This document shows, piece after piece, positions 22,763 through 51,027 of a stretch of 55,879 nt of DNA. The notes under the pieces are model-generated. The model saw only the letters and a list, made by a program, of their open reading frames with translations. It did not search any database and was not told the origin of the DNA. Source of the stretch: Candidatus Atribacteria bacterium (GTDB taxonomy: Bacteria > Atribacterota > Phoenicimicrobiia > Phoenicimicrobiales > Stramentimicrobiaceae); assembly GCA_029556475.1 (NCBI GenBank), contig JAKQEP010000081.1, positions 67,130 through 123,008 of the forward strand, read 5' to 3'. Each line of letters begins with the position of its first letter. Positions within the stretch are counted from its first letter, which is position 1. Both the position numbers and the translations under genes were made by a program.

Positions 22763-23878
22763 TTATCTGTTACCAGACTTTAGAAATTTCTTGACTTCCA
22801 TTAACAATTTACTACTCTCTTTTTCCTTGATGTTTATTACCGGGAAGGTTACCCTGCCAGTCATCTGTTCATGCAATTGTAATCTGTCAATACTGGCCAT
22901 TTCATAACTACCCTTCCTCAGCCTGTCATACTTTGGATAAAAGGGATTAATGGTAACCGCCAAAATAGGTAAATTATAAAGTGTCTTAATGTTGATTCCT
23001 TTATTGAGTAAATCGCCAATCAAATCTTTAAGATGATTAATTTCTCGGGAACCAATCAATAGAAAAGTGGGATTATTGATTATGATAGTTTTCCCTTGGA
23101 ATAACTGATAGTATTTGTCAGCTATTTTTTTTAAAATGGTTTCTTGTATTATACCTGGAATATATACCCCATCATATTCCGGATCATTGATAATACTGAT
23201 CAAATTGCTAAATGTTTTTTGACTGAGCAACGAATGTCCACTCAACTGTTTCAGACATCCATTTTTCTGGAAAATTAGAATATTATTTTTATACTCTCTG
23301 ATTTCGTCTTTATAAATATCTTCTTTCCCCCATTCAGGGAGATTAAATACTCTGGTCATACTTTCAATTTCATCCACCAGTAAACCAATATCAGTATGAC
23401 GAGAGGCACCTGTTGCTATTATTAATGCATCACAATGAATCAATGGTATCATCCTATTCAAAGCCCCATCAACCAGTATAAGTTCCACTCTTTGTTGTTT
23501 TAACTTTTGAATAATAGTCTGAAGATCTATACCTTTATTCGGACCTGCCAATATCACCATTCCTTCCTTTTTTGCTTTTCCAATTATTACACGGCCTAAA
23601 GCAGTATTAACAGATGTTTTTTCAATTATTTCTATTCTATCTTTTAAAGGAAACAGGCATTGTTCAGCTGTGGCAATGGTATTACCCTTTTCAATAAAAA
23701 TGCGGGGTTTGGGTAATCCGGTGATATTATCAATATCTTCTCCGTCATAACCGATACTGGTTAAACCGGGTTTTATTTTTTCTGAATTTGACCATTCTAA
23801 TAAAAAATTAAAAGTTGTAGTCTTCCCTGTATTTTTGGCAGTTCCCAGTATTCCAATTACTTTACTATTACTCTCCAT
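22763..23878 (-). CDS. P-loop protein, aminomutase reactivase-like (KamB/KamC-type candidate)
   Basis: IGILGTAKNTGKTTTFNFLLEW P-loop and acidic/hydrophobic DGALNRMIPLIHCDALIIATGAS; stop is 11 nt from the aminomutase large-subunit stop region on the same strand. Family assignment is from memory. Confidence 0.6.
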   Translation of the reverse strand: MESNSKVIGILGTAKNTGKTTTFNFLLEWSNSEKIKPGLTSIGYDGEDIDNITGLPKPRIFIEKGNTIATAEQCLFPLKDRIEIIEKTSVNTALGRVIIGKAKKEGMVILAGPNKGIDLQTIIQKLKQQRVELILVDGALNRMIPLIHCDALIIATGASRHTDIGLLVDEIESMTRVFNLPEWGKEDIYKDEIREYKNNILIFQKNGCLKQLSGHSLLSQKTFSNLISIINDPEYDGVYIPGIIQETILKKIADKYYQLFQGKTIIINNPTFLLIGSREINHLKDLIGDLLNKGINIKTLYNLPILAVTINPFYPKYDRLRKGSYEMASIDRLQLHEQMTGRVTFPVINIKEKESSKLLMEVKKFLKSGNR

Positions 23879-23889
23879 AAAATATTTCT

Positions 23890-25746
23890 TTATCCTTCAA
23901 AGACAGTATCTCTTCCAGCACGGCCAGGGTAAGCTCCATCCTGAGGACTTCCTAATAATCCTTCATAAAGAGCATCAACAAAACTGCCTCTTTTGGCAAC
24001 TTTTTCTAAAGTTTTTTCTATTCCTTCTGTTATTTCCTTCTCATATTCCTTTGCTTTGCCAGTCGGTTTTATTTTTGCCTTTCCTAAAAAACGAAATACT
24101 TCCTGTGCTCCTCTTAAGGTGTCAATTCTGGAGGCAAGTGAAATTGGCCCTCTGGAATAAGCTTCATCTGAAGATGCTATGGTTATAGCATCTACCTGAA
24201 GAGAAATTGCAAGAGCAGAGTGTAAAGCAGTGGATAAAGTAGATTGGACTCTATCTTCAGAATGAGTCATAAAACCAATAGGTTCACCAGGCCAGATGGG
24301 AGCATCAATTATGGAGCGCAGGCTTTTAATTTTGGCCACATTATAGTCAATATAATTATCATCCATTTTCCCGCTAATCATAACATCGGGAGAATAACAA
24401 AAAAGGGGCTTTAATATAGGTTGAGCTTTTAATTTTAAAGCTAAATCGGCAATAATCAACAAACCAGCAAATGATTTATAGGCTGGAACACCCCCTAACT
24501 CCTCATTTGTTGGCTCATCAAAAGGCATATTATATTTTGCAGCAAATTGTATTGCTTTCAAGCCATCAATAGTTAATCTTGCCGGGTCAGTTCCACCATT
24601 GAGGGATCCATATACTATATGTATTTTAGTTAAATCAGCTCCTAATCTACCTGCAATTACAGTTGTCTCAGGAGTGTTTAGTCCACGATGGGCTCTGACT
24701 GTCCACAATGTCTCTTTATGAAGTGAGGATTTTATTTTTGCCAGATTTTCCCAGGTAATGATAGAACCATCCTCTTCGTGAGAAAGAATCCCCTCCAGTA
24801 AACCCTCAGTACGAGCACCCCATGAAGGGTCAAAATGAAATACTCCGTCTGCTCCCCAGGCTTCACTTGTTTTAATATGGGCAATATCCATAATGGGACA
24901 ACCTGTCCCATATTGTACAAATACAAGTGGTAAAAGTTGCATATGTCTCATTTGCTTGAAATTGATATTCTGTTTTTGTTGTTGGATATAAAGGTTCAGT
25001 TTTCCTATTTCTTCTGAAGATAACTTTCGTACTTTATCGGGCAACAATCCCCTTTCATAAAAACGAACAATCTTTTCATCGCAATAGGCTATATATTTTT
25101 CTTTTAAGACTTTGATTTTCTGATTTTTTTCTTCATCTGTAAGCTTATCATCCTGAGAAATAGTAATCATGTTTTCCCTTAATTTAGCTCTTTCAATCCC
25201 AGGACTGCTCTTATTCTCTCCCCATTGTATAATCTCATCTGTTATTTCATTTAACAGTCTCCTGATACGGTTATTCTTATAGTGATAATTGTGGCTGGCA
25301 GGAATTGATATTTTCTTTCTAAATAGACTATCCCTTTCCCTAAGGAATTCTCTTCCCTCAATAAAAGCGATTATCTCATCAAAATCTGTTCCTGCTCCAA
25401 ATCCTTTATCAAAACCCAGCTCAGCAGCTAATTGGGGAGTAATTGCCTTTCCGCCTAATACTATTTTTGCCTTATCCCTAATTTTTGCCGCCTCTGCCAA
25501 ATCGATAAATTTGCCCAATAATTCTGCTACTCCATAACCAAGAGTTCTGCTAACCAGTATAAAATCCAAATTATCAATTTCAGTTAAACGACTAATAATT
25601 TCTTCTAAGGGTATATCAGGGGGTAGTAAAATAGTTTCATGCCCTCTATCCCTCAGTTTTCGATTTAAAATCTTCAGAGCTACATCATGAACCGGATCCA
25701 GAGGAACGAGTAATACTCTTTTTATTTTAATGGTATTGTTATCCAT
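23890..25746 (-). CDS. OraE/KamDE-like B12- and PLP-dependent aminomutase large subunit, cobalamin domain N-terminal
   Basis: N-terminal Rossmann B12-type domain (VLLVPLDPVHDVALKILNRKLRDRGHETILL...LVSRTLGYG...IVLGGKA), then TIM-barrel region (QYGTGCPIMDIAHIKTSEAWGADGVFHFDPSWGARTEG, VYGSLNGGTDPARLTIDGLKAIQFAA, TIASSDEAYSRGPISLASRIDTLRGAQE). Confidence 0.75.
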   Translation of the reverse strand: MDNNTIKIKRVLLVPLDPVHDVALKILNRKLRDRGHETILLPPDIPLEEIISRLTEIDNLDFILVSRTLGYGVAELLGKFIDLAEAAKIRDKAKIVLGGKAITPQLAAELGFDKGFGAGTDFDEIIAFIEGREFLRERDSLFRKKISIPASHNYHYKNNRIRRLLNEITDEIIQWGENKSSPGIERAKLRENMITISQDDKLTDEEKNQKIKVLKEKYIAYCDEKIVRFYERGLLPDKVRKLSSEEIGKLNLYIQQQKQNINFKQMRHMQLLPLVFVQYGTGCPIMDIAHIKTSEAWGADGVFHFDPSWGARTEGLLEGILSHEEDGSIITWENLAKIKSSLHKETLWTVRAHRGLNTPETTVIAGRLGADLTKIHIVYGSLNGGTDPARLTIDGLKAIQFAAKYNMPFDEPTNEELGGVPAYKSFAGLLIIADLALKLKAQPILKPLFCYSPDVMISGKMDDNYIDYNVAKIKSLRSIIDAPIWPGEPIGFMTHSEDRVQSTLSTALHSALAISLQVDAITIASSDEAYSRGPISLASRIDTLRGAQEVFRFLGKAKIKPTGKAKEYEKEITEGIEKTLEKVAKRGSFVDALYEGLLGSPQDGAYPGRAGRDTVFEG

Positions 25747-26014
25747 TTTTTATCTTGTCTCTCTTTTGATTACATAAATTGAACCACCCGTAAGAATCTC
25801 CGGGCTTATAAATGTTTGCTCTTATTCTAATTCGTGCTCCGGAACCTAAAAACTCAATAAATACTATATCAGCATCTTTAAACCCCAATTGTTCCATTAT
25901 TGCTAAACCTATTCTTCTGCCCTCTTCTTCACTCTGACAGACAATAAAGGTTTCTATATCCAGGGAATCTATTATCCTATTAAAGATATTTTCGCCGTTC
26001 ATATTTTTCCTCAT
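25739..26014 (-). CDS. OraS/KamE-N-terminal-like small aminomutase subunit
   Basis: 91 aa, overlaps the large-subunit start by 8 nt; FIVCQSEEEGRRIGLAIMEQLGFKDADIVFIEFLGSGARIRIRANIY resembles the small dimerisation domain. Confidence 0.6.
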   Translation of the reverse strand: MRKNMNGENIFNRIIDSLDIETFIVCQSEEEGRRIGLAIMEQLGFKDADIVFIEFLGSGARIRIRANIYKPGDSYGWFNLCNQKRDKIKNG

Positions 26015-26166: not shown

Positions 26167-27000
26167 CTAATTATCGTTATAAGACTGGGGCAACAACTCT
26201 CCCCGGGCAACCATTTTTACTTTACCAGTTAAGGTAATATTTTTAATTACATTCTTTCCCTTAACGAAATCAACCCCCAGATCTCCGCCTTTTGTTTTAA
26301 CAATAAAAGGAGGATGTTTTTCTTCATTCAAAGAATATACAATAGCACTGGCTAAAGAGCCGGTTCCGCAGGATAAAGTGATTTCCTCTACTCCTCTTTC
26401 GTAAGTCCTTACAAATAACTGATTACCTTCTTTAAATTCAACAAAATTTACATTAGTACCCGCAGGAAAATAATTTTCTTCGAATCTAATTTTTTTACCA
26501 AGGTTATAAAGATTACTTTCCGATATATTCTCTTTCAGAAAAATCACACAATGAGGAACTCCTATAAAAAGGTAGGTATAAATAAAATCCTGTTCATCAA
26601 TAGTAATGATTCTATTTCTTTCCATCTTATTAATACTAACATCTGGCATCTGAATCATAACATTATCATCATTGGCCTTTGCAGATATTTTGCCGGCAAG
26701 TGTTTCAAAGACCATTTCCTGATTTGCTATCCCCTCAATAAATGCATATTCAGCAATGCATCTAGCACCATTTCCACACATCTCACCTTCTGAGCCATCA
26801 GAATTAAATAATCTCATTTTAAAATCATAAAGCAAAGAATTTTCTAACAATAAAAGTCCATCAGCACCAAGAGATTCTCTCCGTTTGCAAATCTTTTTTG
26901 CCATTTCGCTGATATTTCTTTCAGGTATTATTTTGTTACGATTATCAATTATTATAAAATCATTTCCATACCCATTCATTTTTACAAAATTTATTCTCAT
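26167..27000 (-). CDS. dapF: Diaminopimelate epimerase-family protein
   Basis: FVKMNGYGNDFIIIDNR, NSDGSEGEMCGNGARCIAEY (first catalytic Cys) and EITLSCGTGSLASAIV (second catalytic Cys). Confidence 0.9.
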   Translation of the reverse strand: MRINFVKMNGYGNDFIIIDNRNKIIPERNISEMAKKICKRRESLGADGLLLLENSLLYDFKMRLFNSDGSEGEMCGNGARCIAEYAFIEGIANQEMVFETLAGKISAKANDDNVMIQMPDVSINKMERNRIITIDEQDFIYTYLFIGVPHCVIFLKENISESNLYNLGKKIRFEENYFPAGTNVNFVEFKEGNQLFVRTYERGVEEITLSCGTGSLASAIVYSLNEEKHPPFIVKTKGGDLGVDFVKGKNVIKNITLTGKVKMVARGELLPQSYNDN

Positions 27001-27142: not shown

Positions 27143-28051
27143 TTATATCAATCGTGACATTAACTCCTGCTTCTCTCCATAAAGAAAATCTATAGGTGGA
27201 ATTTCCAGCATAGTATAACAACCTGGTTTTTGTTTTAGGCTTGCCCTTGCTGCCGAAACCATTACCTGCCCGGTTAATGCAGGATTGTTGACCGATAAAG
27301 AATATTCCATTCTTTGATTATGTGTCTTACCGGATACACCTTTCCTTTCTATCTTAACAGCGTGGCCCATATCAAGCAGGTCAGTTGTACTATCTACTTT
27401 AAAAATATGAACTTCATCATTAATAAAATATGGGTCATTTTTTATTCTAAGTGATACATTTTCCAAATTGTGCCCTTCTTTTAACTTAACATATACTAGA
27501 CGCCTGTGCATACCTACACCTTTGGGAATGGTTAATGAAATAGCATCATCTATTCCTTCAATGGCCTTTACCGCTACTGTATGTCCCATACTCATCCCGG
27601 GACCATAATTAACATAGGTAATACCTTTAGGGGCATTAATTTCTAAAACAGCCCTGACTATGGAATCGCTTCCCGGATCCCAGCCTGCAGAGATAATAGA
27701 TACAGCATCATGTTTTTTTGCCACATTATTTAAATCTTTCCGAAGATTTATTAGAGATTCCCCGTGAACATCATAAGCATCTACAGTATTTATGCCTTTT
27801 TGTAGATAAATGGGGGCAGTTTCGGGCACATTTCTGCTGTTAATAGCCAGAATTGCCACATCTAACTTACCTAGCTTGTTAATATCATAATCTATGATTG
27901 GAATGTTTCCAACTTCTTCTCTGATTGTTTTGACAACATGTGGTAATTCGATTATGCCAGCTACTTCCATATCCGGACTCTCTATCAGGGCATCCAGGAC
28001 CCCTCTCCCCACATGGCCAAATCCTACAATGGCTACTCTAAATTTGTACAA
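27143..28051 (-). CDS. meso-Diaminopimelate dehydrogenase-like oxidoreductase
   Basis: [76 protein letters not shown] resemble the Ddh family as known from Corynebacterium. Probable TTG start at 28051 with SD AGGAGG. Confidence 0.85.
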   Translation of the reverse strand: MYKFRVAIVGFGHVGRGVLDALIESPDMEVAGIIELPHVVKTIREEVGNIPIIDYDINKLGKLDVAILAINSRNVPETAPIYLQKGINTVDAYDVHGESLINLRKDLNNVAKKHDAVSIISAGWDPGSDSIVRAVLEINAPKGITYVNYGPGMSMGHTVAVKAIEGIDDAISLTIPKGVGMHRRLVYVKLKEGHNLENVSLRIKNDPYFINDEVHIFKVDSTTDLLDMGHAVKIERKGVSGKTHNQRMEYSLSVNNPALTGQVMVSAARASLKQKPGCYTMLEIPPIDFLYGEKQELMSRLI

Positions 28052-28113
28052 TTTTTTTCCTCCTGAACAAATACGCATGAATTGCATATTTACTAAACTA
28101 TTCCTTTATCTTT

Positions 28114-29124
28114 CTATAAAAACATTTTATTATAAGCAAAATTTGCTACTTCTCCGCCGGTGTGTAAAAAAAGTATATTCTCATCTTTTTTAAAATAGTT
28201 CTTCTTTATCAGGTCAATCATTCCTGCCATTGCCTTACCAGTGTAAACTGGATCAAGTATGATCCCCTCTGTTTGGGCTAAAGTATATATTGCTTTTATT
28301 CCATCCATGGTTGGAATGGCATATCCTTCTCCAATATAATCATAATTTATTAAAATCTCTTCGGGCGAAAAAGCCTTACATTCAAAGTTTAGGTCTTTTA
28401 TGGTCTGATTGCATAAATCTGCAATTTCCTGGGATTTTGGTTTAATATGTCTGCTTATACTGATACCCAAACCTTTACAATCCATTTTAAATAATCTTAG
28501 CCCCAATTCTATGCCTGCCTGAGTTCCGCCTGTCCCAACGGCTGAAACAATATAATCGAAATGGATATTTTTTTCTTCTGACTGAAGTTTTAATTCTTCA
28601 ATCGCGCTAATATATCCCAAATTACCTAAAGGATTACACCCACCCAAGGGAATGATATAAGGAACTTGACCAACTCTTAATATTTCCTCTGCAATTTCTC
28701 CTGTAATTGGTGTTTCACCTGCTTCTTCTTTTTGTTCTTCTTCATCAGTATAGGGTTTAAACCTAATTTCACATCCTAATAGGTGATCTAGAAGCAAATT
28801 ACCTTGATATTCTTCTGGTTTTTCACCATTAAGCACTAAAATTACTCTCAGACCTATCTTTCTGGCAGCTGCAGCTGTTTGCCTTGCCCAATTTGATTGA
28901 AGTCCTCCTATGGTAATTATTACATCTGCTTTTTTAGCCAAAGCATCGGCTAATATGTATTCTAACTTTCTTGTTTTATTACCTCCTAATGCCAGTCCGG
29001 TACAATTATCACATTTAATGAATATCTCAGGTCCTTTAAGTAATTTTGTAAGATTTTCGGCATATACCAAAGGAGTTGGTAGAAAAGCCAATTCTATTTT
29101 AGGATATTGTTTAGTAAGATTCAT
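28114..29124 (-). CDS. D-cysteine desulfhydrase/ACC deaminase family PLP enzyme (fold type II)
   Basis: FLPTPLVYAENLTKLL, ALGGNKTRKLEYILADAL (PLP Lys), TIGGLQSNWARQTAAAA, SAVGTGGTQAGIELG. Confidence 0.88.
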   Translation of the reverse strand: MNLTKQYPKIELAFLPTPLVYAENLTKLLKGPEIFIKCDNCTGLALGGNKTRKLEYILADALAKKADVIITIGGLQSNWARQTAAAARKIGLRVILVLNGEKPEEYQGNLLLDHLLGCEIRFKPYTDEEEQKEEAGETPITGEIAEEILRVGQVPYIIPLGGCNPLGNLGYISAIEELKLQSEEKNIHFDYIVSAVGTGGTQAGIELGLRLFKMDCKGLGISISRHIKPKSQEIADLCNQTIKDLNFECKAFSPEEILINYDYIGEGYAIPTMDGIKAIYTLAQTEGIILDPVYTGKAMAGMIDLIKKNYFKKDENILFLHTGGEVANFAYNKMFL

Positions 29125-34320: not shown

Positions 34321-36006
34321 TTAAAATTTATCCCTAGAAAAATTCAAACCCCTATTTTTTGTTATTATGAAATTATCCTCTATTCCTATTCCAAAAATTT
34401 TTGTATGCCATTGATATTCAATAGCTGCAACCATTCCAGAACTGACTTTCTCTTCAGCATATTTTAGGAAAAAAAGTGTTACTGGTTCTTGTAATCCCAT
34501 AAGATGCCCAACATTTCTTTCGTAAATATCAGCAAATATTTCAACATTTGATGACAATAAACCAATATTTTTAAAAAAATTTTTATCATTTTCAATTTTG
34601 GATACAGCTAACTGATATATTTCTTTACCTTGCATTCCAGACTTAATATTCGGTATTACTTCTTTTATCATATACTCTTCTAACTTTTTATATGCCTGCA
34701 TCATTTTTTTTTCTAAAATAAGTGTTCTGGTAATATCTGAAGCAGCATGATGAATACCCTGGTGATCAAAAATTGATACTCCAGCATCTAATTTCAGACT
34801 TTTAGTATTTTTATCTAAGTAATATTCAGTTGGTAATGAAGGAATGACAGTTCTACTTCCAGAGGAACAAATTGTCAACATTGGTTCTATATAAAATGGT
34901 ATGTTATGGTTATTTTTAAATTCTTGTAACTTTAATTCGTAATATTTTTCTATATCTAGTTCCGATATTTGTTCTTGTTTGTTTATTTTATTTTTTGCCC
35001 ACTCTAATGCTTCTTCAATAGCATATACAGTTGCTCTCGAAGCAATAATATAATAAGAAAGATCTTCCCAACCTCTGTTTTGACGAGATTTTCTTATACA
35101 ACTAATACAACCTTGCACTTTATCTATATGAATTTCTAATTCTTTAAAAAAACTTGTAGAAATGTGGTCCTCTTCAATTCCCAAAAAACTACAGTTAGAC
35201 ATTTTTTTAAGTATTTCAACAAATATATTAACTTCTTTACCCTTTCCAAACTCTTCTAAAGGTTGTTTAGAAAATAAATATACATTATTTTCCCCTTTTT
35301 TATATAAAGCAGATAATTGATAATTCTCTTGATATTTTTTCAAGCCATATCCAGTTATTTCCTGTAAGCCTAAGGGAGATGTGCATAAAACCGCATCAAT
35401 TTTATTTTTTTCCATTTGTTCATCTAAACTATCGAAACGTGATTCAGTCCTTTTGAAAATTAATTCTTCCAAGTAACTTTTTAAAGGTGATTTGTTAACT
35501 AATTCAATTGCTATTTTGTTTGCCTTATCTCTATCAATATTCATTTTGTCTATTATTTCATTTTTAGAAATTACATACATATTATAAATTGGATTATATT
35601 TCTCTTCATCATCAAATTTCACAATATATTCATTTAGAAGTAATTTATAAATTGAAACAGGAATATTTTTTTGAACCAAAATTTGTTCACTTGTTTTAAA
35701 AATTTTTTTAAATGCACTAATAAAATCAGGGTAAATATGCTCGCTGGGGATTTCAAAGGTAAAATATGGACTATAATATATGATCTCAATATCTGGAGGA
35801 AATGAATTTAATATTTCTTTCTGAGCATCTAAATTTCCCTTTTCTAAATGACATGCAAATAAATATTTTTTATTATTAAACTTGATAATTTTTGGTGCAG
35901 CTACTTTATAGCTATCAAAACTAACAGAAACAGATGTGAACATCTTCATGACATTTATATTAAGTAATGATGAAATTTCATTAATATCAGTTATCAATTT
36001 TATCAT
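34321..36006 (-). CDS. M24 (creatinase/aminopeptidase-fold) family protein with long N-terminal extension
   Basis: LKLDAGVSIFDHQGIHHAASDITRTLIL (Asp ligands), ERNVGHLMGLQEP (His), GMVAAIEYQ and FGIGIEDNFIIT (Glu); ~180 aa N-terminal region not assigned. Confidence 0.75.
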   Translation of the reverse strand: MIKLITDINEISSLLNINVMKMFTSVSVSFDSYKVAAPKIIKFNNKKYLFACHLEKGNLDAQKEILNSFPPDIEIIYYSPYFTFEIPSEHIYPDFISAFKKIFKTSEQILVQKNIPVSIYKLLLNEYIVKFDDEEKYNPIYNMYVISKNEIIDKMNIDRDKANKIAIELVNKSPLKSYLEELIFKRTESRFDSLDEQMEKNKIDAVLCTSPLGLQEITGYGLKKYQENYQLSALYKKGENNVYLFSKQPLEEFGKGKEVNIFVEILKKMSNCSFLGIEEDHISTSFFKELEIHIDKVQGCISCIRKSRQNRGWEDLSYYIIASRATVYAIEEALEWAKNKINKQEQISELDIEKYYELKLQEFKNNHNIPFYIEPMLTICSSGSRTVIPSLPTEYYLDKNTKSLKLDAGVSIFDHQGIHHAASDITRTLILEKKMMQAYKKLEEYMIKEVIPNIKSGMQGKEIYQLAVSKIENDKNFFKNIGLLSSNVEIFADIYERNVGHLMGLQEPVTLFFLKYAEEKVSSGMVAAIEYQWHTKIFGIGIEDNFIITKNRGLNFSRDKF

Positions 36007-39395: not shown

Positions 39396-40865
39396 TTATA
39401 AAATTCCAGCATACTTGCAGGTGATCTCAATTAGTTTTACCAAGCCCTGAATTGTCCAGCGGGCTCTCTCAACAATGAGGTTACCATCATTATCTGTGGT
39501 ACCCAAACCAGGAGATACAAAGATATTGCCATCATAGGCAATGGTAGGAATTATTCCCATCTGAGAGGTACCCGATTGAAAAATGTTTGTTCCTGAATAC
39601 ATATCTTCAATGGAAAAAATTGGAATTCCAAAATTATTTTTTTGCCAGCTCTTTTCATAATTTATTTCAACGGCACCAGAATTATAGGATTTGGTAATCA
39701 TAAAATCATTTCTAATTTTTTCATTAATCTTTGCAAATTCTTGAACAGTAATATCATAAAGCTGGTCCACCGGGTCTGTTAATCGTTCTGGATGATCTCT
39801 TAGTACTTTAAGCGATGCAATAACACCAACCAGGGCTTCCTTGCCTGGGTCAACTGTTACATAGGCAGCCTTGCCATGCGATGCCCCTGTCCCCCAGCGG
39901 TCTCCATGTACTCCCAATGCCCTTCTAATATCTATTAGTAGTTCTTCTTTACCAATTATTAACCCGGCTGTTACGCAAGAGGCTGCTTTATCCATGCTAT
40001 AACACATAATATCAGCATTATTTTTCCTGATATCCATACCTACGAAAGGTGCTCCCCAGGCATTATCTACGATATAAGGCACATTATAATCCTGAGCAAG
40101 TTCGCCAATCATTTTTTGTAAAAGCGGGGTTCCCTCGCTATCTTTAACGCCATAACCATATCCTGGCGTATCATAACCAAGGGAAGTAAAGGCAGTTAGA
40201 TATGCTGCGTGTTGTTCTGCAGTCTTTTTTAATACCTTCATAGAAGCTTCTGGATCAACGTTGCTTAACTGAACACAGGGATGATACTTTATACCATGAC
40301 AATCATAGTTAGCTCCTTCCAAAGGAACAATTATACAATCTAAATTGTTCTGTCTTTTTCCGTAAAAACCTAGCTCTCCGGGGGTTGTGCCACGGTCAGC
40401 AAAAATATCCTTGTACTTACCCGGAAATGGACGTCCATAACTGCCATGGTGATGTAGGTGTTTCTCATAAGGAATAATGTATCTGGAACGATAATTGTCA
40501 CCTCTGCCCTGCATAGGCGGTGTGGCAAGTACATCAAAAGAAACCCATAAGGCACCTTCACAGGTGTTTATTGCTACACCATCATATTCATCACCATAAA
40601 CATCTTTTACAATTTCTCTGATTTCCTCGTCAAATACATTGTTGGGAATAATTCTTTCTCCATAATAAGTTTCGGCCTCTCTAACTTCTTTAAATGGTAA
40701 TCCATGACACCCGGAAATTGCACCAGTAAGACCGAATTTTCCCCTTATATCTTTTGGAATACCAATTTCATCAGCAGCTTTCCTGGCTTCAGCATAAATA
40801 TTGGGTATATTCTGTTGTAAATGACGATACAATTGAAATTTATACTTGAAATCTGTCATTCTCAC
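39396..40865 (-). CDS. Fold-type-I PLP-dependent enzyme, function unassigned
   Basis: VPYIVDNAWGAPFVGMDIRKNNADIMCYSMDKAASCVTAGLIIGKEE has the Asp...Ser-x-x-Lys arrangement of PLP fold type I; 489 aa. Confidence 0.7.
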   Translation of the reverse strand: MRMTDFKYKFQLYRHLQQNIPNIYAEARKAADEIGIPKDIRGKFGLTGAISGCHGLPFKEVREAETYYGERIIPNNVFDEEIREIVKDVYGDEYDGVAINTCEGALWVSFDVLATPPMQGRGDNYRSRYIIPYEKHLHHHGSYGRPFPGKYKDIFADRGTTPGELGFYGKRQNNLDCIIVPLEGANYDCHGIKYHPCVQLSNVDPEASMKVLKKTAEQHAAYLTAFTSLGYDTPGYGYGVKDSEGTPLLQKMIGELAQDYNVPYIVDNAWGAPFVGMDIRKNNADIMCYSMDKAASCVTAGLIIGKEELLIDIRRALGVHGDRWGTGASHGKAAYVTVDPGKEALVGVIASLKVLRDHPERLTDPVDQLYDITVQEFAKINEKIRNDFMITKSYNSGAVEINYEKSWQKNNFGIPIFSIEDMYSGTNIFQSGTSQMGIIPTIAYDGNIFVSPGLGTTDNDGNLIVERARWTIQGLVKLIEITCKYAGIL

Positions 40866-41018: not shown

Positions 41019-41465
41019 TCATTTCACAGTATCTTCCTGTCCAGAACTAATAATAATTTGATCTTCTATTCTAATATTAAGCTCTTTCCCAGTAGATATT
41101 TTAGGGGAATAAAGAATAATATTTTGATGGTTGGGAATATGGGTGTCATCAAAACCAGCCACAGTCCCCAATAGATTATTTTTCCAGTAGACTTCATCGC
41201 CCATTACCATAACCCCACCTGTTTTGATTTCTACAAAAGCAATATAAGCAATCCTGTTAACAATGGCTCCTGGTCCAGTTTTTTCCTGGTCAGTGAAGAT
41301 AAGCTCGTGTATATCATTCTTTTTCAAAACCCTGGATATTTGTGGTATTAAATGAAGAGATCTATTATCCAACCTTGCCTGTAATACAGCTACTACTGAA
41401 CATTCTATATTTCTTTTTGTGCTAAAAGGGTTCTCCTTAAACAGACCACCGGTATAAGGGTCCAT
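41019..41465 (-). CDS. Conserved-looking hypothetical protein (148 aa)
   Basis: Complete ORF in a same-strand run with the PLP enzyme and RidA; GGVMVMGDEVYWKNNLLGTVAGFDDTHIPNHQNI; no family recognised with confidence. Confidence 0.65.
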   Translation of the reverse strand: MDPYTGGLFKENPFSTKRNIECSVVAVLQARLDNRSLHLIPQISRVLKKNDIHELIFTDQEKTGPGAIVNRIAYIAFVEIKTGGVMVMGDEVYWKNNLLGTVAGFDDTHIPNHQNIILYSPKISTGKELNIRIEDQIIISSGQEDTVK

Positions 41466-41550: not shown

Positions 41551-41940
41551 CTAGCAGCTAGCAATAGCTTCCATTTCAACTTTAGCTCCTTTTGGTAAAT
41601 TGGAAACCTCTACACAAGCACGTGCTGGCAAACTGGAGTTAAAGTATTCTGAATAAACCGCATTAATGCTATCAAAATCTTTCATATCAGTAATAAAGAT
41701 AGTTACTTTCAATACCTTCTGTAGTGAACTTCCGGCACTTTCCAAAATTGCTTTGATATTTTCAATTACCTGTTTTGTTTGGCTATCAATATTACCGTTA
41801 ACAAACTCATTTGTTGAGGGGTTAATTGCAATCTGTCCAGAAACAAAAATCAGGTTACCATATTTAATCGCCTGAGAATAAGGGCCGATTGCGGAGGGAG
41901 CAGTCATAGTTTTGATAATCTTTCTGTCTATGGTAAACAC
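41551..41940 (-). CDS. ridA: RidA/YjgF family enamine/imine deaminase
   Basis: APSAIGPYSQAIKYGNLIFVSGQIAINP, NIKAILESAGSSLQKVLKVTIFITDM, LPARACVEVSNLPKGAKVEMEAIA. Confidence 0.95.
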   Translation of the reverse strand: MFTIDRKIIKTMTAPSAIGPYSQAIKYGNLIFVSGQIAINPSTNEFVNGNIDSQTKQVIENIKAILESAGSSLQKVLKVTIFITDMKDFDSINAVYSEYFNSSLPARACVEVSNLPKGAKVEMEAIASC

Positions 41941-41957: not shown

Positions 41958-42641
41958 TTAAAGTATTATTTTTCCACTACCATTTTCAGGCTTTATTTCA
42001 GCAAGGTAATTGTAGATTGTAAAACGGGAAACATTCAATTTTTCTGCCAACCGGTCAATTGCGTCTTTCACCAAAAAAATTCCATGTTTTTGCAAGAACC
42101 GAACCATTTCTATTTTGTCTTCTTTTTGCATTTTAGTTATGTCTTTGCCGATTCTCTGCTGAGCCTTAGAAAACAACTGTTCCATCAATTCATCCAGGGA
42201 ATGGGAGAATGATTCTTCTCTTTCTTCTTTAATAATATTCTCAGCATTATTCAAATTGTTTTCAATATTACAAAATTCGTCTATCTCTTTAGCTATATTT
42301 ACAATTGATTCTAAATTAAAATTAATGCATAAGAAGCCAACAATTTTCTTAATGTTATCACGAATAAAAATTGTGGTAGATTTTAATCTCTTTCCATCTT
42401 TACTTTCTGTTTTATAATTAGCCACATAATTAATGTCATTGAAGATATCAGAGGTTAGAAAATATAATCCAAGGTCAGTCATTGGACCCCCAACTTTTCG
42501 GCCTGTTACATGTCCATTTTCAATTAATACAATAGAATGTTCAAGATCTTGGACATCATGAAGTATAACCTCACAATTTTTTCCAAAAGCACGAGCTATG
42601 CCTTTTGCTACGGGGATAAAATCTTTTAAAAGGGGGTTCAT
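41958..42641 (-). CDS. YheO/DauR-like PAS + HTH transcriptional regulator
   Basis: FGKNCEVILHDVQDLEHSIVLIENGHVTGRKVGGPMTDLGL; C-terminal HTH DAIDRLAEKLNVSRFTIYNYLAEI. Confidence 0.88.
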   Translation of the reverse strand: MNPLLKDFIPVAKGIARAFGKNCEVILHDVQDLEHSIVLIENGHVTGRKVGGPMTDLGLYFLTSDIFNDINYVANYKTESKDGKRLKSTTIFIRDNIKKIVGFLCINFNLESIVNIAKEIDEFCNIENNLNNAENIIKEEREESFSHSLDELMEQLFSKAQQRIGKDITKMQKEDKIEMVRFLQKHGIFLVKDAIDRLAEKLNVSRFTIYNYLAEIKPENGSGKIIL

Positions 42642-44547: not shown

Positions 44548-45684
44548 TCAACCTCTCGGTTTTAATAAGAAATAACCGACACCTTTTTCAATTATTTCAG
44601 CATATCTTGGTGCATCAGAAACAATAATTTCTTTATCAGGATATAATTCAGAAAAAGCACTTATTATTTCTAAAACCGTAGAGGTATGTCTACCGGTACG
44701 TACATCAATGTGTGAACCTGTTTCGTCAAATGGAACATAGAGTAATCCAAGTTTTGCCGCTTTTAAAATAAATTCGTCTTTACCGGTAATAATTAAAGCT
44801 TCATCTGTTCGACCTCTTAATGGATCCTGAATTGGGTCGCAGGTTTCAGCCAGCAATGATAATGCCCTTGAATGATCTCCAACCTCTCTATGGGTAAGTC
44901 CATGTAAATTCTCAGGAGATATTTCTTTCCCTATTTTTATTCCTTCAAAAGCACTCAAATTCATCTCTGCGATAACTGCTATATCCATTGCTTTTTGATT
45001 TGCCACTATAGTATTAATAACAGGATACATTGGCTCTGCCTCGTGAAGATCTATAAATAAATCTACATTTTCTTTTTCAATAACCTGCATAATTGCATGC
45101 CCAACTTTTTCGGTTATAGTTCCATCAGCTTTTCCTGGAAAAGTACGATTAAGGTTCCTGATATCAAAACCAGAAAGTGATTGTCCGCTGGGATAATGTA
45201 CATATACTTCAGGGTCAGGCCATTGATGAATAGGGTTAGTATAGCGGTCTCCAAACCTAAACCATCTGCTTCCCCAATCTGTTTTTATGTGGTAGCGCAT
45301 CGGATAGGCTTCTCCAGGGTGACCGGCAGTAAAAGCGCTATTATTGGCAAATGGAATAAGAATGACTTTCCCTTTTTCAACGTGAGCATTTTCTATTAAT
45401 ATAACATTTGTCATTACCCCTGAAAGTTCATTAGTATGAACCCCCGCTGTAACCATAACAGCTCCCCCATCTTCTTCCCCTTCTAATATATATATATTAG
45501 TATCAAGAGCTGTTCCTTTTAAATCAGCAAAGTAATCACTTAACTTTGCTACTCTGGTAACCCCAGGGCCCTCTACTATTGGTTCTTTTTCGTTTAACCA
45601 TATTAAAAACTCTCTTCCTGCAATTACCATCATAATGACAGACAGCAGAATGATAAGAGTTTTTCTTAACCACTTATTTGACAT
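44548..45684 (-). CDS. M14-family succinylglutamate desuccinylase/aspartoacylase-like protein, membrane-anchored
   Basis: N-terminal TM; VTAGVHTNELSGVMTNVILIENA (HxxE zinc motif), RNLNRTFPGKADGTITEKVGHAIM, VDLFIDLHEA. Confidence 0.82.
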   Translation of the reverse strand: MSNKWLRKTLIILLSVIMMVIAGREFLIWLNEKEPIVEGPGVTRVAKLSDYFADLKGTALDTNIYILEGEEDGGAVMVTAGVHTNELSGVMTNVILIENAHVEKGKVILIPFANNSAFTAGHPGEAYPMRYHIKTDWGSRWFRFGDRYTNPIHQWPDPEVYVHYPSGQSLSGFDIRNLNRTFPGKADGTITEKVGHAIMQVIEKENVDLFIDLHEAEPMYPVINTIVANQKAMDIAVIAEMNLSAFEGIKIGKEISPENLHGLTHREVGDHSRALSLLAETCDPIQDPLRGRTDEALIITGKDEFILKAAKLGLLYVPFDETGSHIDVRTGRHTSTVLEIISAFSELYPDKEIIVSDAPRYAEIIEKGVGYFLLKPRG

Positions 45685-47506: not shown

Positions 47507-49132
47507 TTATTTGCCTAAGTTTTCCGCATCCCAAGCTTTAACTGCTTCCACCCACCATTCAGGATAAGCAGGTGTTGGTTCACCTAAAATTCCGCCATCC
47601 ATGTATTTGGTGACGAGATGATCAGCAAATTTCCACCATTCTTTTACAGTTTTATCGCCAGTCTGAACAACATAATTGGTTAAGTATTGTCTGGCTAAAT
47701 CTGGATTATCTTTGTATATTTCCAAGGCAGTTGCTTCAACATATGGCTGCAGAGCAAACATTTCTCCCATAAGCTCAGCTCGTTTTTCTCTTATATCTTT
47801 TATCATGTAGCTGAATTTTAGATTTGCCCAGTTGGAAATGAAGTTACTGGCCCAGTACATGCTGTTTCTGTCAACATCTACTCTGGTCTGGTTTAACCAG
47901 GAATCTGGGACCTGAGTAACACCACAATATAGTGGCATCTGGATACTGGTTGCTGTCTTATCATATCCAAACCACATCAGACCGCCAATATGTGGTGGCA
48001 TCCAGTTTCTGGCAATTGTAACTAAATTGTAAGTACAAGATTGACTAGAGAATGGGGTACTAAAGAATAATCCTCTCTGATATCTTTCAGGCATTCCCCA
48101 AGGACCTCCACCCAAGCTTTTAGTTAAGTCGTATTCTTCATATTCAATGCCTTCCCAGAAGTCTTTCTGTATCTCCATAATCTCTTCTAATGTTAACTTG
48201 CCTTTATCGGGCTTAACAGAGAATGGCCATCTTTCACGAGTAAGGAATTCTTCCTTATCCTTTATCATAGATGGAGCCATTAATTGGATGAAGCGGTTTT
48301 CTCTTGGGTTGACACCTCTTGATACAGTGTATGCTTCCCAGACACGGAAAGGTTCGCCAGAGTCAGGATCCCAGTATCCCAAATCTTCAGCCAGCGAATA
48401 GATGTTTGAAGAAGCCATGAAAAATTCCTTGTTGTCAAGGTCAATTTCATCAATTCTTCCACGATTCACGTTAAATGATACTTCATCATCTGGTACTCTC
48501 TGGGCTACCCAGACTGCTCCTGGTCTGCCACAATCATAGTACCAGTCTGCACCACCGCCATATATTTCAAACCACCATGCTTCATTTGGGTCAGTTACGG
48601 ACCATGCTTCTGCACCATAAGTTGCAGCATAACCGTATTCTTCTGCAAGTGCACCAGCTACCTGTATTGCTTCTCTGGCTGTTTTGGCTCTCTGTAAAGC
48701 AAAAACCATCAGCTGGTCTGTATCCATTATTCCGTTAGGATTCGCTAATTCTGGTTTCTGGAAAATAAGCTCGTCGCTGATAAATACAGAATGTTCATTC
48801 ATAAAGGGGAAACCAGAGTGGAAATAGGTGTAAGTCTCTTCAACCTGCGGTATCTCTCCTGCTAGGACTATTTCTCTTGGTGGGATACTGGTATTGGCGA
48901 ACCTATACAGATAAACAGGTGCCATTGTGCCAGGCTCATGTTTTGCACCAGGTACAATTACGATATTGGGGTCACACCAGCCTTGTTGTTCTCCGGTGTT
49001 AATGACAGCCCCTAAGGTATTGGCGTCTTTTCCGTAATTGATATTGGTACAACAAATAGCATTCATACTAATCATGACCAGAAATACAAGCATTAAACTT
49101 GCGGGAATCAAGATTCTAAATCTACTTTTCAT
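47507..49132 (-). CDS. C69-family dipeptidase (secreted Ntn hydrolase), copy 1
   Basis: Signal peptide ending before CCTNINYGKDANTLGAVINTG; FMNEHSVFISDELIF, NPNGIMDTDQLMVFALQRAKTAREAI, DPNEAWWFEIYGG. Confidence 0.92.
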   Translation of the reverse strand: MKSRFRILIPASLMLVFLVMISMNAICCTNINYGKDANTLGAVINTGEQQGWCDPNIVIVPGAKHEPGTMAPVYLYRFANTSIPPREIVLAGEIPQVEETYTYFHSGFPFMNEHSVFISDELIFQKPELANPNGIMDTDQLMVFALQRAKTAREAIQVAGALAEEYGYAATYGAEAWSVTDPNEAWWFEIYGGGADWYYDCGRPGAVWVAQRVPDDEVSFNVNRGRIDEIDLDNKEFFMASSNIYSLAEDLGYWDPDSGEPFRVWEAYTVSRGVNPRENRFIQLMAPSMIKDKEEFLTRERWPFSVKPDKGKLTLEEIMEIQKDFWEGIEYEEYDLTKSLGGGPWGMPERYQRGLFFSTPFSSQSCTYNLVTIARNWMPPHIGGLMWFGYDKTATSIQMPLYCGVTQVPDSWLNQTRVDVDRNSMYWASNFISNWANLKFSYMIKDIREKRAELMGEMFALQPYVEATALEIYKDNPDLARQYLTNYVVQTGDKTVKEWWKFADHLVTKYMDGGILGEPTPAYPEWWVEAVKAWDAENLGK

Positions 49133-49401: not shown

Positions 49402-51027
49402 TTATTTATCTTTAAAGAATTCTTCCACATATTTGTCTCTAAATTCTTTTTCTAAATCCCACCAATATTCGGGGTAATCTAACCAGGGTCCGCCCACTAT
49501 GCCGCCATCAACATACTTAGCTAATAATTCATCACCGAATTCTCTCCAGTAGTCTACTACTCTGTTAGCTGTATCAACTGAATATCTTGTAAGGAAACGA
49601 ATTGCAAGTTCTGGATCCTGCTCATACAGTTTTACTGCAGCTTCTTCAATTGCTGGTTGTAAATCAAACATATCTTTCATCAGGTATTCTCTGGCTGCTT
49701 TTATGTCTTCAATCATATACCTATGACAGAGATTTGCCCAATTACTTACAAATGTAAATGGCCAGTAAGCGCTTTCTCTCTGATAATAATGCCGTGTCTG
49801 GTTATTAAATGATTTTGGCAGTTCTGTAATTCCACAATAAAGAGGCATTTGTACACTGGTATGAGGTTTATCAAATCCAAACCACATCAAACCACCAATG
49901 GGATCGGGTAACCAGTTTCTGGCTTGTGTAATGAGGTGGTATGAGGCTGAGGGTTGTGAGAGCTTCCAGGGTAGTACGAAATTCCAAATTCTATCAGGGC
50001 TTCCCCATGGACCAGCAAGAGGCCCTACTGTTGGGTCAAGATGAGTCCCTTCAAGATAATTTTTCTGAAATTCCATTAAATCATGTACGGAGAGTTTCTT
50101 GTCAGGTTTAACTGAGAAAGGCCATCTTTCCTGATTTGGGTCAGGATTTAAAGAAGGTGCCACCAGACTCATTAAGGTCCATTCTCTGACATTGGGTCCA
50201 GTACCTTCAGGTCCGTATGCGGCAAATACTTCATACCAGACAAAAGGTTCACCTGGTTCCCAAAAGCCCATATCTTCAGCCAGGGTGTATATATTGGAGG
50301 AACCCATGAAATAATCTGTATCATCAAGGTCTATTTCAGCAATTCTGCTTCGGTTTTCATTGAAAGCAACATGATCATCGGGAACCCTCTGGGCAACCCA
50401 CACTGCTCCAGGTCTGCCACATCCGGGATACCAGTCTGCTCCACCACCAAAGACTTCAAACCACCATGCTTCATTGGGGTCAGTTACTGACCAGGATTCC
50501 GGTCCACCATAATTGGCAGAATAGCCGTATTCTTCAGCTAAAGCTCCTGCTACTTGAATAGCTTCTCTTGCTGTTTTGCCTCTCTGTAAAGCAAATACCA
50601 TCAGCTGGTCTGAATCCATAATACCATTTGGATTTACCAGTTCAGGTTTTCCATCTGGCAGGTACTCATCACTTATAAAGACCTGGTGTTCATTCATGAA
50701 CGGGAATCCAGCATGGAAATAGGCATATGTTTCCTCAACTTGAGGAATTTCTCCAACTTTTATAACCGGAACAGATTCGGGTGCACCATCCTGATACAAA
50801 TTTAAATAGACTGGTGCCATGGTGCCGGGTTCATGTTTCTGTCTTGGAACGATTACAATATTCGGATTACATGCCCCTTCTTGTGATCCCATATTCATTA
50901 CAGAACCGTCAACAGAGGCATCTTTTCCGACACTCATATTAGTACAGCTAAAAGTAGTTAAGTTTGCGAAGATCAGTATCAGTGCCATTAAGCTAACTGA
51001 TATTAAAATTCTATACTTAGATTTCAT
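49402..51027 (-). CDS. C69-family dipeptidase (secreted Ntn hydrolase), copy 2
   Basis: Same length (541 aa) and motifs as copy 1: SCTNMSVGKDASVDGSVMNMGSQEG, FMNEHQVFISDEYL, DPNEAWWFEVFGGGADWYPGCGRPGAVWVAQRVPDD. Confidence 0.92.
   Translation of the reverse strand: MKSKYRILISVSLMALILIFANLTTFSCTNMSVGKDASVDGSVMNMGSQEGACNPNIVIVPRQKHEPGTMAPVYLNLYQDGAPESVPVIKVGEIPQVEETYAYFHAGFPFMNEHQVFISDEYLPDGKPELVNPNGIMDSDQLMVFALQRGKTAREAIQVAGALAEEYGYSANYGGPESWSVTDPNEAWWFEVFGGGADWYPGCGRPGAVWVAQRVPDDHVAFNENRSRIAEIDLDDTDYFMGSSNIYTLAEDMGFWEPGEPFVWYEVFAAYGPEGTGPNVREWTLMSLVAPSLNPDPNQERWPFSVKPDKKLSVHDLMEFQKNYLEGTHLDPTVGPLAGPWGSPDRIWNFVLPWKLSQPSASYHLITQARNWLPDPIGGLMWFGFDKPHTSVQMPLYCGITELPKSFNNQTRHYYQRESAYWPFTFVSNWANLCHRYMIEDIKAAREYLMKDMFDLQPAIEEAAVKLYEQDPELAIRFLTRYSVDTANRVVDYWREFGDELLAKYVDGGIVGGPWLDYPEYWWDLEKEFRDKYVEEFFKDK

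Follow-up and report, generated by a model that had tools for sequence, protein, structure and literature searches.

A probable new family of adenosylcobalamin-dependent mutases with rearranged aminomutase modules in Candidatus Atribacteria and other bacteria

Gene Organisation of the Locus

A 55,879-nucleotide stretch of a Candidatus Atribacteria genome (GenBank assembly GCA_029556475.1, contig JAKQEP010000081.1, positions 67,130 to 123,008), hereafter called the window, carries three consecutive genes that encode a small subunit of 91 amino acids (aa), a large subunit of 618 aa, and a P-loop protein of 371 aa (Table 1). Profile comparisons and a structural model indicate that the first two probably form an adenosylcobalamin (AdoCbl)-dependent radical mutase of a new family, which would belong to the superfamily of lysine 5,6-aminomutase (LAM; KamD/KamE) and ornithine 4,5-aminomutase (OAM; OraS/OraE) and take part in the degradation of an amino acid other than lysine or ornithine. 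A first-pass annotation of the same DNA had given the coordinates of the three open reading frames (ORFs) correctly, all on the minus strand. The first and the second ORF share 8 bp, and 11 bp separate the second from the third.

The P-loop protein had been suggested to be a reactivase, and it matches the NCBIfam family reactivase_KamB (NF052386) with 246.2 bits, above the cut-off of 210. The ort, ord, kce, and kdd partners of ornithine and lysine fermentation had been reported as absent; likewise, no such family scored above its cut-off among the window ORFs scanned.

Table 1. Features of the mutase locus and its surroundings in the window
Feature	Position	Strand	Basis or remark
Small subunit, 91 aa	25739-26014	minus	free-standing dimerisation domain of KamE/OraE
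Large subunit, 618 aa	23890-25746	minus	B12 (Rossmann) domain, OraS-like helical segment, TIM barrel
B12 domain, residues 1-135	25342-25746	minus	axial His20 (DPVHD motif), no Lys at His+11
OraS-like helical segment, about residues 157-235	25042-25278	minus	weak PF16552, KamD N-terminal alignment, helical model
TIM barrel, about residues 270-555	24082-24939	minus	hhalign to OraE and KamD
KamB-type cobalamin-enzyme reactivase, P-loop, 371 aa	22763-23878	minus	NF052386, 246 bits
Second, divergent DapF (racemase/epimerase)	26167-27000	minus	TIGR00652, 244.6 bits
Type II-like meso-diaminopimelate/D-amino-acid dehydrogenase (Ddh)	27143-28087	minus	TIGR01921, 287.7 bits
Fold-II PLP enzyme, D-cysteine desulfhydrase/D-cysteate sulfo-lyase family	28114-29124	minus	TIGR01275, 315 bits (cut-off 289)
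Fold-type-I PLP enzyme PLP486	39396-40865	minus	62-64% identical to copies beside Firmicutes mutases
DUF6917 protein	41019-41465	minus	PF21891, 154.6 bits
RidA enamine/imine deaminase	41551-41940	minus	TIGR00004, 182 bits (cut-off 106)
YheO-like PAS/HTH regulator, head of cluster	41958-42641	minus	PF08348, 142 bits; PF13309, 74.8 bits

Domain Architecture and Fold

The cobalamin-binding (B12) domain proposed for the N-terminus of the large subunit was recovered by PF02310, which matches residues 14-123 with 44.8 bits (cut-off 32.1), and such a domain is found at the N-terminus of all 37 large-subunit homologues scanned. The first 145 residues of the family aligned with KamE at an hhalign E-value of 1.3e-20 and with the C-terminal B12 domain of OraE at 6.9e-12, in keeping with a cobalamin fold. 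The remainder of the large subunit aligned with OraE (E 1.1e-6) and KamD (E 1.9e-5), and no Pfam or NCBIfam family matched the barrel half of the window protein.

An AlphaFold2 model of the large subunit alone was built from 37 sequences and reached a mean pLDDT of 87 and a pTM of 0.80. A Foldseek search of the PDB with this model returned LAM alpha (8t0v_A, E 3.9e-16, and 1xrs) as the best matches, followed by OAM (3kow, E 2e-10) and then by glutamate mutase (E 4.7e-9). The profile and fold comparisons agree with the earlier description of an OraE/KamD-like TIM barrel following the B12 domain, in an order unlike that of OraE and KamDE.

Between these two parts lies a stretch that aligns with the N-terminal region of KamD and is helical in the AlphaFold2 model. 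PF16552 (OAM_alpha) matches it weakly in 3 of the 37 homologues, with a best E-value of 0.0038, below the family cut-off.

The small subunit is minimal and lies alongside the large one, as described before, but its designation as OraS-like did not hold. Its homologues match PF16554 (OAM_dimer) rather than OAM_alpha, in 7 of 15 cases and with a best E-value of 4.4e-4, and the profile of the small-subunit family aligns with residues 38-73 of KamE (hhalign E 2.5e-5); its identification with OraS was therefore rejected. Residues D16, D19, E21, T22, E29, G57, R61, R63, R65, and Y75 are invariant. The OraS-like part sits inside the large subunit, and the 91-aa partner is the dimerisation domain that is found inside KamE and OraE. 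All four modules of LAM and OAM are present, cut anew into a dimerisation domain on the one hand and a B12–clamp–barrel chain on the other, with E-values of 1e-20 for the B12 domain, 1e-6 for the barrel, 4e-4 and 2.5e-5 for the dimerisation domain, and a weak 0.004 for the OraS-like segment.

Distribution and Phylogeny

A single scan of 84,980 species genomes revealed 48 further loci of the same layout, in which the relatives are full-length or nearly so and share 51-82% sequence identity. Most belong to Firmicutes (Sporomusa, Heliobacterium, Heliorestis, Tepidanaerobacter, Thermosediminibacter, and Thermovorax), and others to Atribacteria, Thermotogota, Ignavibacterium, Treponema, and Adiutrix. 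A whole-genome search also turned up three genomes from the family of the window genome, with close copies (81-84%). Among the 48 loci, gene calling recovered the small subunit in 35 and KamB in 43, with the genes mostly overlapping or a short distance apart; both counts are lower bounds, since the calling left out ORFs shorter than 70 aa. Because 48 loci of other genomes preserve the layout, chance, a frameshift, or an assembly fusion was rejected as the source of the architecture. No relatives were found on viral contigs, and a plasmid search gave one partial B12-domain match.

On the phylogenetic tree of B12 domains, KamE and OraE form a group (99/88) and all members of the new family lie outside it, although the root is unsure owing to long branches and the new family is not a well-supported clade. 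The absence of close clustering with OraE or KamDE agrees with the separate subfamily suggested by the first-pass annotation. Several genomes with the mutase (G302, G340, G437, G461, and others) also carry B12 proteins of the size of KamE or OraE, identified by length and score, and the new mutase is therefore unlikely to be a mere substitute for LAM or OAM. A search of the open-access literature found no paper on the mutase family or on DUF6917. The family is real and conserved, its homology and architecture are well supported, and it is apparently undescribed.

Active-Site Residues and Cofactor Use

The contacts of pyridoxal 5'-phosphate (PLP) in LAM and OAM have been listed (PMC3958899). 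In the new family, the axial His20 is present in all 48 aligned large subunits, in the context D-P-V-H-D, with Asp at His-3; the window copy has Ala at His+3. The lysine at His+11, to which PLP is bound as an aldimine in LAM and OAM, occurs in 25/25 KamE and 30/30 OraE sequences versus 0/48 members of the mutase family, where this position (Leu31 in the window copy) is Leu in 46 sequences and never Lys. The loop that follows the PLP lysine in KamE is deleted.

The KamD residues Arg184, Gln188, Ser189, Tyr236, Ser238, and Arg268 are each invariant in 26/26 KamD sequences. In a profile alignment whose confidence ranges from 3 to 9 of 9, Arg184, Tyr236, Ser238, and Arg268 correspond to Asp306, Ala352, Arg354, and Gly384 of the window protein; for Gln188 and Ser189, the alignment offers no counterpart in the new family. 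The PLP-stacking Tyr263 of KamD is retained as Tyr379. The residues thus suggest that the B12 machinery is intact and that the PLP site has been either remodelled or lost. The use of PLP is doubtful because the aldimine lysine is absent from all 48 sequences and the residues binding the PLP phosphate are replaced; therefore, neither PLP use nor a diamino substrate can be assumed.

Residues C283, D287, R351, H353, R354, K374, Y379, R390, N414, E416, R499, D527, and E528 of the barrel are invariant over the 48 sequences. The D527-E528 pair matches the TPDEG motif of OraE, in which the Glu338 site of OAM lies (PMC4413051); the match is one of motif, the automatic alignment being weak there. In the model, Lys374 lies where a barrel strand ends; its counterpart in the alignment is OAM His182, a ligand of the substrate carboxylate (PMC3958899).

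Two accounts of the active site may be considered. The enzyme may be a PLP-independent AdoCbl carbon-skeleton mutase or an ammonia-eliminating enzyme, in which arginines bind an acidic amino acid directly, as in glutamate mutase. The loss of the PLP anchor and phosphate pocket, the conservation of several barrel arginines, the rank of glutamate mutase as the next fold after LAM and OAM, and the match of one large-subunit homologue to PF06368 (Met_asp_mut_E, E 0.001) make this account plausible, if short of probable, since the fold is nonetheless nearer to LAM and OAM, the small subunit is of the OAM dimer type, and the reactivase is KamB. Alternatively, the protein could be an aminomutase of a diamino acid, as the first-pass annotation suggested, that depends on PLP and AdoCbl in the usual way and departs from the known enzymes only in its permuted domains, with PLP held on another lysine such as Lys374 or Lys25 and its phosphate on other arginines. 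The position of Lys374, the stacking Tyr379 and probably Asn414, the closest folds, and the neighbouring DapF and Ddh, which act on the diamino acid diaminopimelate (DAP) in known pathways, would all fit. Nevertheless, the missing His+11 lysine, the deleted loop, and the lack of conservation at the six KamD positions make it rather unlikely.

The B12 domain of the large subunit also resembles the corrinoid proteins of methyltransferases, and one could ask whether the protein is a corrinoid methyl carrier or a catalytically dead relative rather than a mutase. The fused mutase-type barrel, the conserved Glu528, the KamB reactivase, and about 100 invariant residues make this highly improbable.

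Several points weigh against the assignment to radical mutases of the LAM/OAM superfamily. The similarity of the barrel is remote, with hhalign probabilities of 78-91%, and a sequence-profile search of the PDB with the barrel found no LAM or OAM match below an E-value of 0.9 (LAM alpha, 0.95). The strict DxHxxG motif of class I (base-off/His-on) AdoCbl mutases appears here in the altered form D-P-V-H-D. The profile alignments behind the residue mapping inspire modest confidence; it is uncertain which residues correspond to KamD Asn299 and to several substrate contacts of OraE.

Genomic Partners

The genes for PLP486, the DUF6917 protein, and RidA lie 13-16 kb upstream of the mutase on the same strand and were missed by the first-pass annotation; the unit may span about 20 kb and not 3 kb. 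This stretch of approximately 20 kb also encloses TRAP and branched-chain ABC transporters, which are linked by position only. Genes neighbouring the Firmicutes mutases encode DUF6917, a RidA-like protein, the uncharacterised PLP enzyme PLP486 (~488 aa), a flavin adenine dinucleotide (FAD) enzyme, a GntR/FCD regulator, and a transporter.

For the analysis of co-occurrence, 300 genomes were sampled from the phylum to which Tepidanaerobacter belongs (Firmicutes). The mutase was found in 28 and full-length PLP486 in 29 of them, and every one of the 28 mutase genomes had both (Fisher p 1.4e-38, a value inflated by the relatedness among genomes). An AlphaFold2 model of PLP486 has a fold-type-I structure, with SelA, SepCysS, and SufS as the nearest relatives in Foldseek. 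DUF6917 was present in 7/7 mutase genomes tested. Of the seven genomes tested for the FAD enzyme, only G224 and G221 clearly had it, and no convincing match to it was found in the window genome, its three relatives, or Ignavibacterium. In its place are Ddh in the window genome and Ignavibacterium, and genes of SoxA/DAO-type dehydrogenases in two other genomes (G008/G009).

In each of two genomes (G265 and G307), the full-length mutase and PLP486 are both present in duplicate, which suggests that the pair duplicates together. In Sporomusa ovata (L081:9995-11816), the mutase is read as two ORFs of 264 and 333 aa beside an intact small subunit, KamB, and PLP486; this is either an interrupted copy or an assembly error.

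The window genome has another DapF (318 bits, contig C21), and its only clear Ddh is the one in the window, for which the closest solved structures are 8i78 and 3wb9. These neighbours raise the possibility that the substrate in the window genome is DAP from peptidoglycan, with the DapF paralogue epimerising and Ddh deaminating around the mutase step. In line with it, the order ddh-dapF-small subunit-mutase-kamB recurs in a Thermotogota genome (L048), and Ddh is also encoded near the Ignavibacterium mutases. However, Ddh was found in only 3 and DapF in 2 of the 48 homologous loci, the Firmicutes core being without both, and Ddh of this type is promiscuous toward D-amino acids, which leaves DAP an improbable substrate. 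The participation of the adjacent fold-II PLP enzyme in the pathway is uncertain.

A search for riboswitches as a clue to the substrate revealed none in the window; related loci yielded only two T-boxes, both distant from the operon. A membrane transporter of ~457 aa with no Pfam or NCBIfam match is encoded beside many mutase operons (L066:8199-9572; L045, L048, and L081) and is possibly the importer of the pathway substrate.

Other genes were noted in the window. A 561-aa protein whose C-terminal domain is of the M24/creatinase type and whose N-terminal third is unassigned is encoded at 34321-36006, flanked by the TRAP and ABC transporter genes. At 47507-49132 and 49402-51027, near a DoeB/AstE-like deacylase (44548-45684), two C69-family dipeptidases that score below the curated cut-off are encoded in tandem. 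In one relative (G002:C176:10301-12065), ddh adjoins a divergent dapF and no mutase was found, in a genome that is 89% complete.

Proposed Mechanism and Pathway

If the enzyme is a radical mutase of the LAM/OAM superfamily, AdoCbl would bind base-off via His20, and the entry of a substrate into the arginine-rich barrel (R351, R354, R312, and R390) would bring the Rossmann domain round to lie above the barrel. Glu528, which takes the place of OAM Glu338, could help to break the Co–C bond, and the adenosyl radical would set off a 1,2-rearrangement, with KamB exchanging damaged cofactor at the expense of ATP. With the canonical anchor gone, PLP may not be used, which we slightly favour, or may be held otherwise, for example via the invariant Lys374.

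The constant co-occurrence of the mutase with PLP486 in the sampled Firmicutes points to an undescribed pathway of amino-acid breakdown in anaerobic bacteria. By analogy with ornithine fermentation, we infer that it comprises a racemase, the mutase, an oxidative deamination, and a PLP-dependent step. In the window genome, import and racemisation by the DapF paralogue may be followed by the mutase reaction, oxidative deamination (by Ddh here and by the FAD enzyme in Firmicutes), hydrolysis of the imine by RidA, and processing by PLP486; cofactor use, the order of steps, and the chemistry are deduced here. Tentatively, the mutase could be described as a PLP-independent offshoot of the aminomutases that performs a new AdoCbl radical reaction in an undescribed anaerobic amino-acid pathway, comprising the mutase, KamB, PLP486, RidA, and DUF6917, in Firmicutes, Atribacteria, Thermotogota, Ignavibacteria, spirochaetes, and others.

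Together with the linked partner gene, the broad distribution would mean that a route of amino-acid degradation is unannotated in about 9% of the sampled Firmicutes genomes. It is testable in cultured organisms, for example heliobacteria or Tepidanaerobacter.

Comparison with Known Systems

Glutamate mutase (MutE/MutS) uses no PLP, has an arginine-rich substrate pocket, and contains neither OAM_dimer nor OraS-like parts. It probably shares the class I AdoCbl mutase fold with the new family, although its fold match is weaker (E 5e-9 versus 4e-16 for LAM). A search for glutamate mutase in the G099 phylum group gave weak partial barrel matches only, which were unusable as a reference set.

LAM, the best fold match, has the same TIM barrel with an N-terminal helical segment, the Rossmann B12 domain, the dimerisation domain, and an adjoining KamB. 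In LAM, the alpha subunit is clamp–barrel and the beta subunit dimer–B12, whereas in the new family the dimerisation domain stands alone and the B12 domain is fused ahead of the clamp–barrel. An equivalent of the beta-subunit Lys144 is absent, and the PLP-phosphate residues are replaced. The large subunit scores only 44 bits against the LAM-beta family NF052385 (cut-off 280), and PF09043 does not match the window copy, its best match among the homologues having an E-value of 0.032.

OAM shares the four modules, the Glu338-type motif, and a pair of small and large subunits. However, OAM is cut into the clamp (OraS) and a barrel–dimer–B12 chain (OraE) with the B12 domain at the C-terminus, while in the new family the B12 domain is N-terminal, the dimerisation domain is the small subunit, and an equivalent of Lys629 is missing. 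Against the OraE family NF040743, the large subunit scores 28.2 bits, in the B12 part only (cut-off 800). To our knowledge, only two kinds of PLP- and B12-dependent aminomutases have been characterised, each with its own domain cut. A third cut without the lysine that, on its release, gates the swing of the domain in these two would show whether this lysine is essential to the radical chemistry or the addition of one branch.

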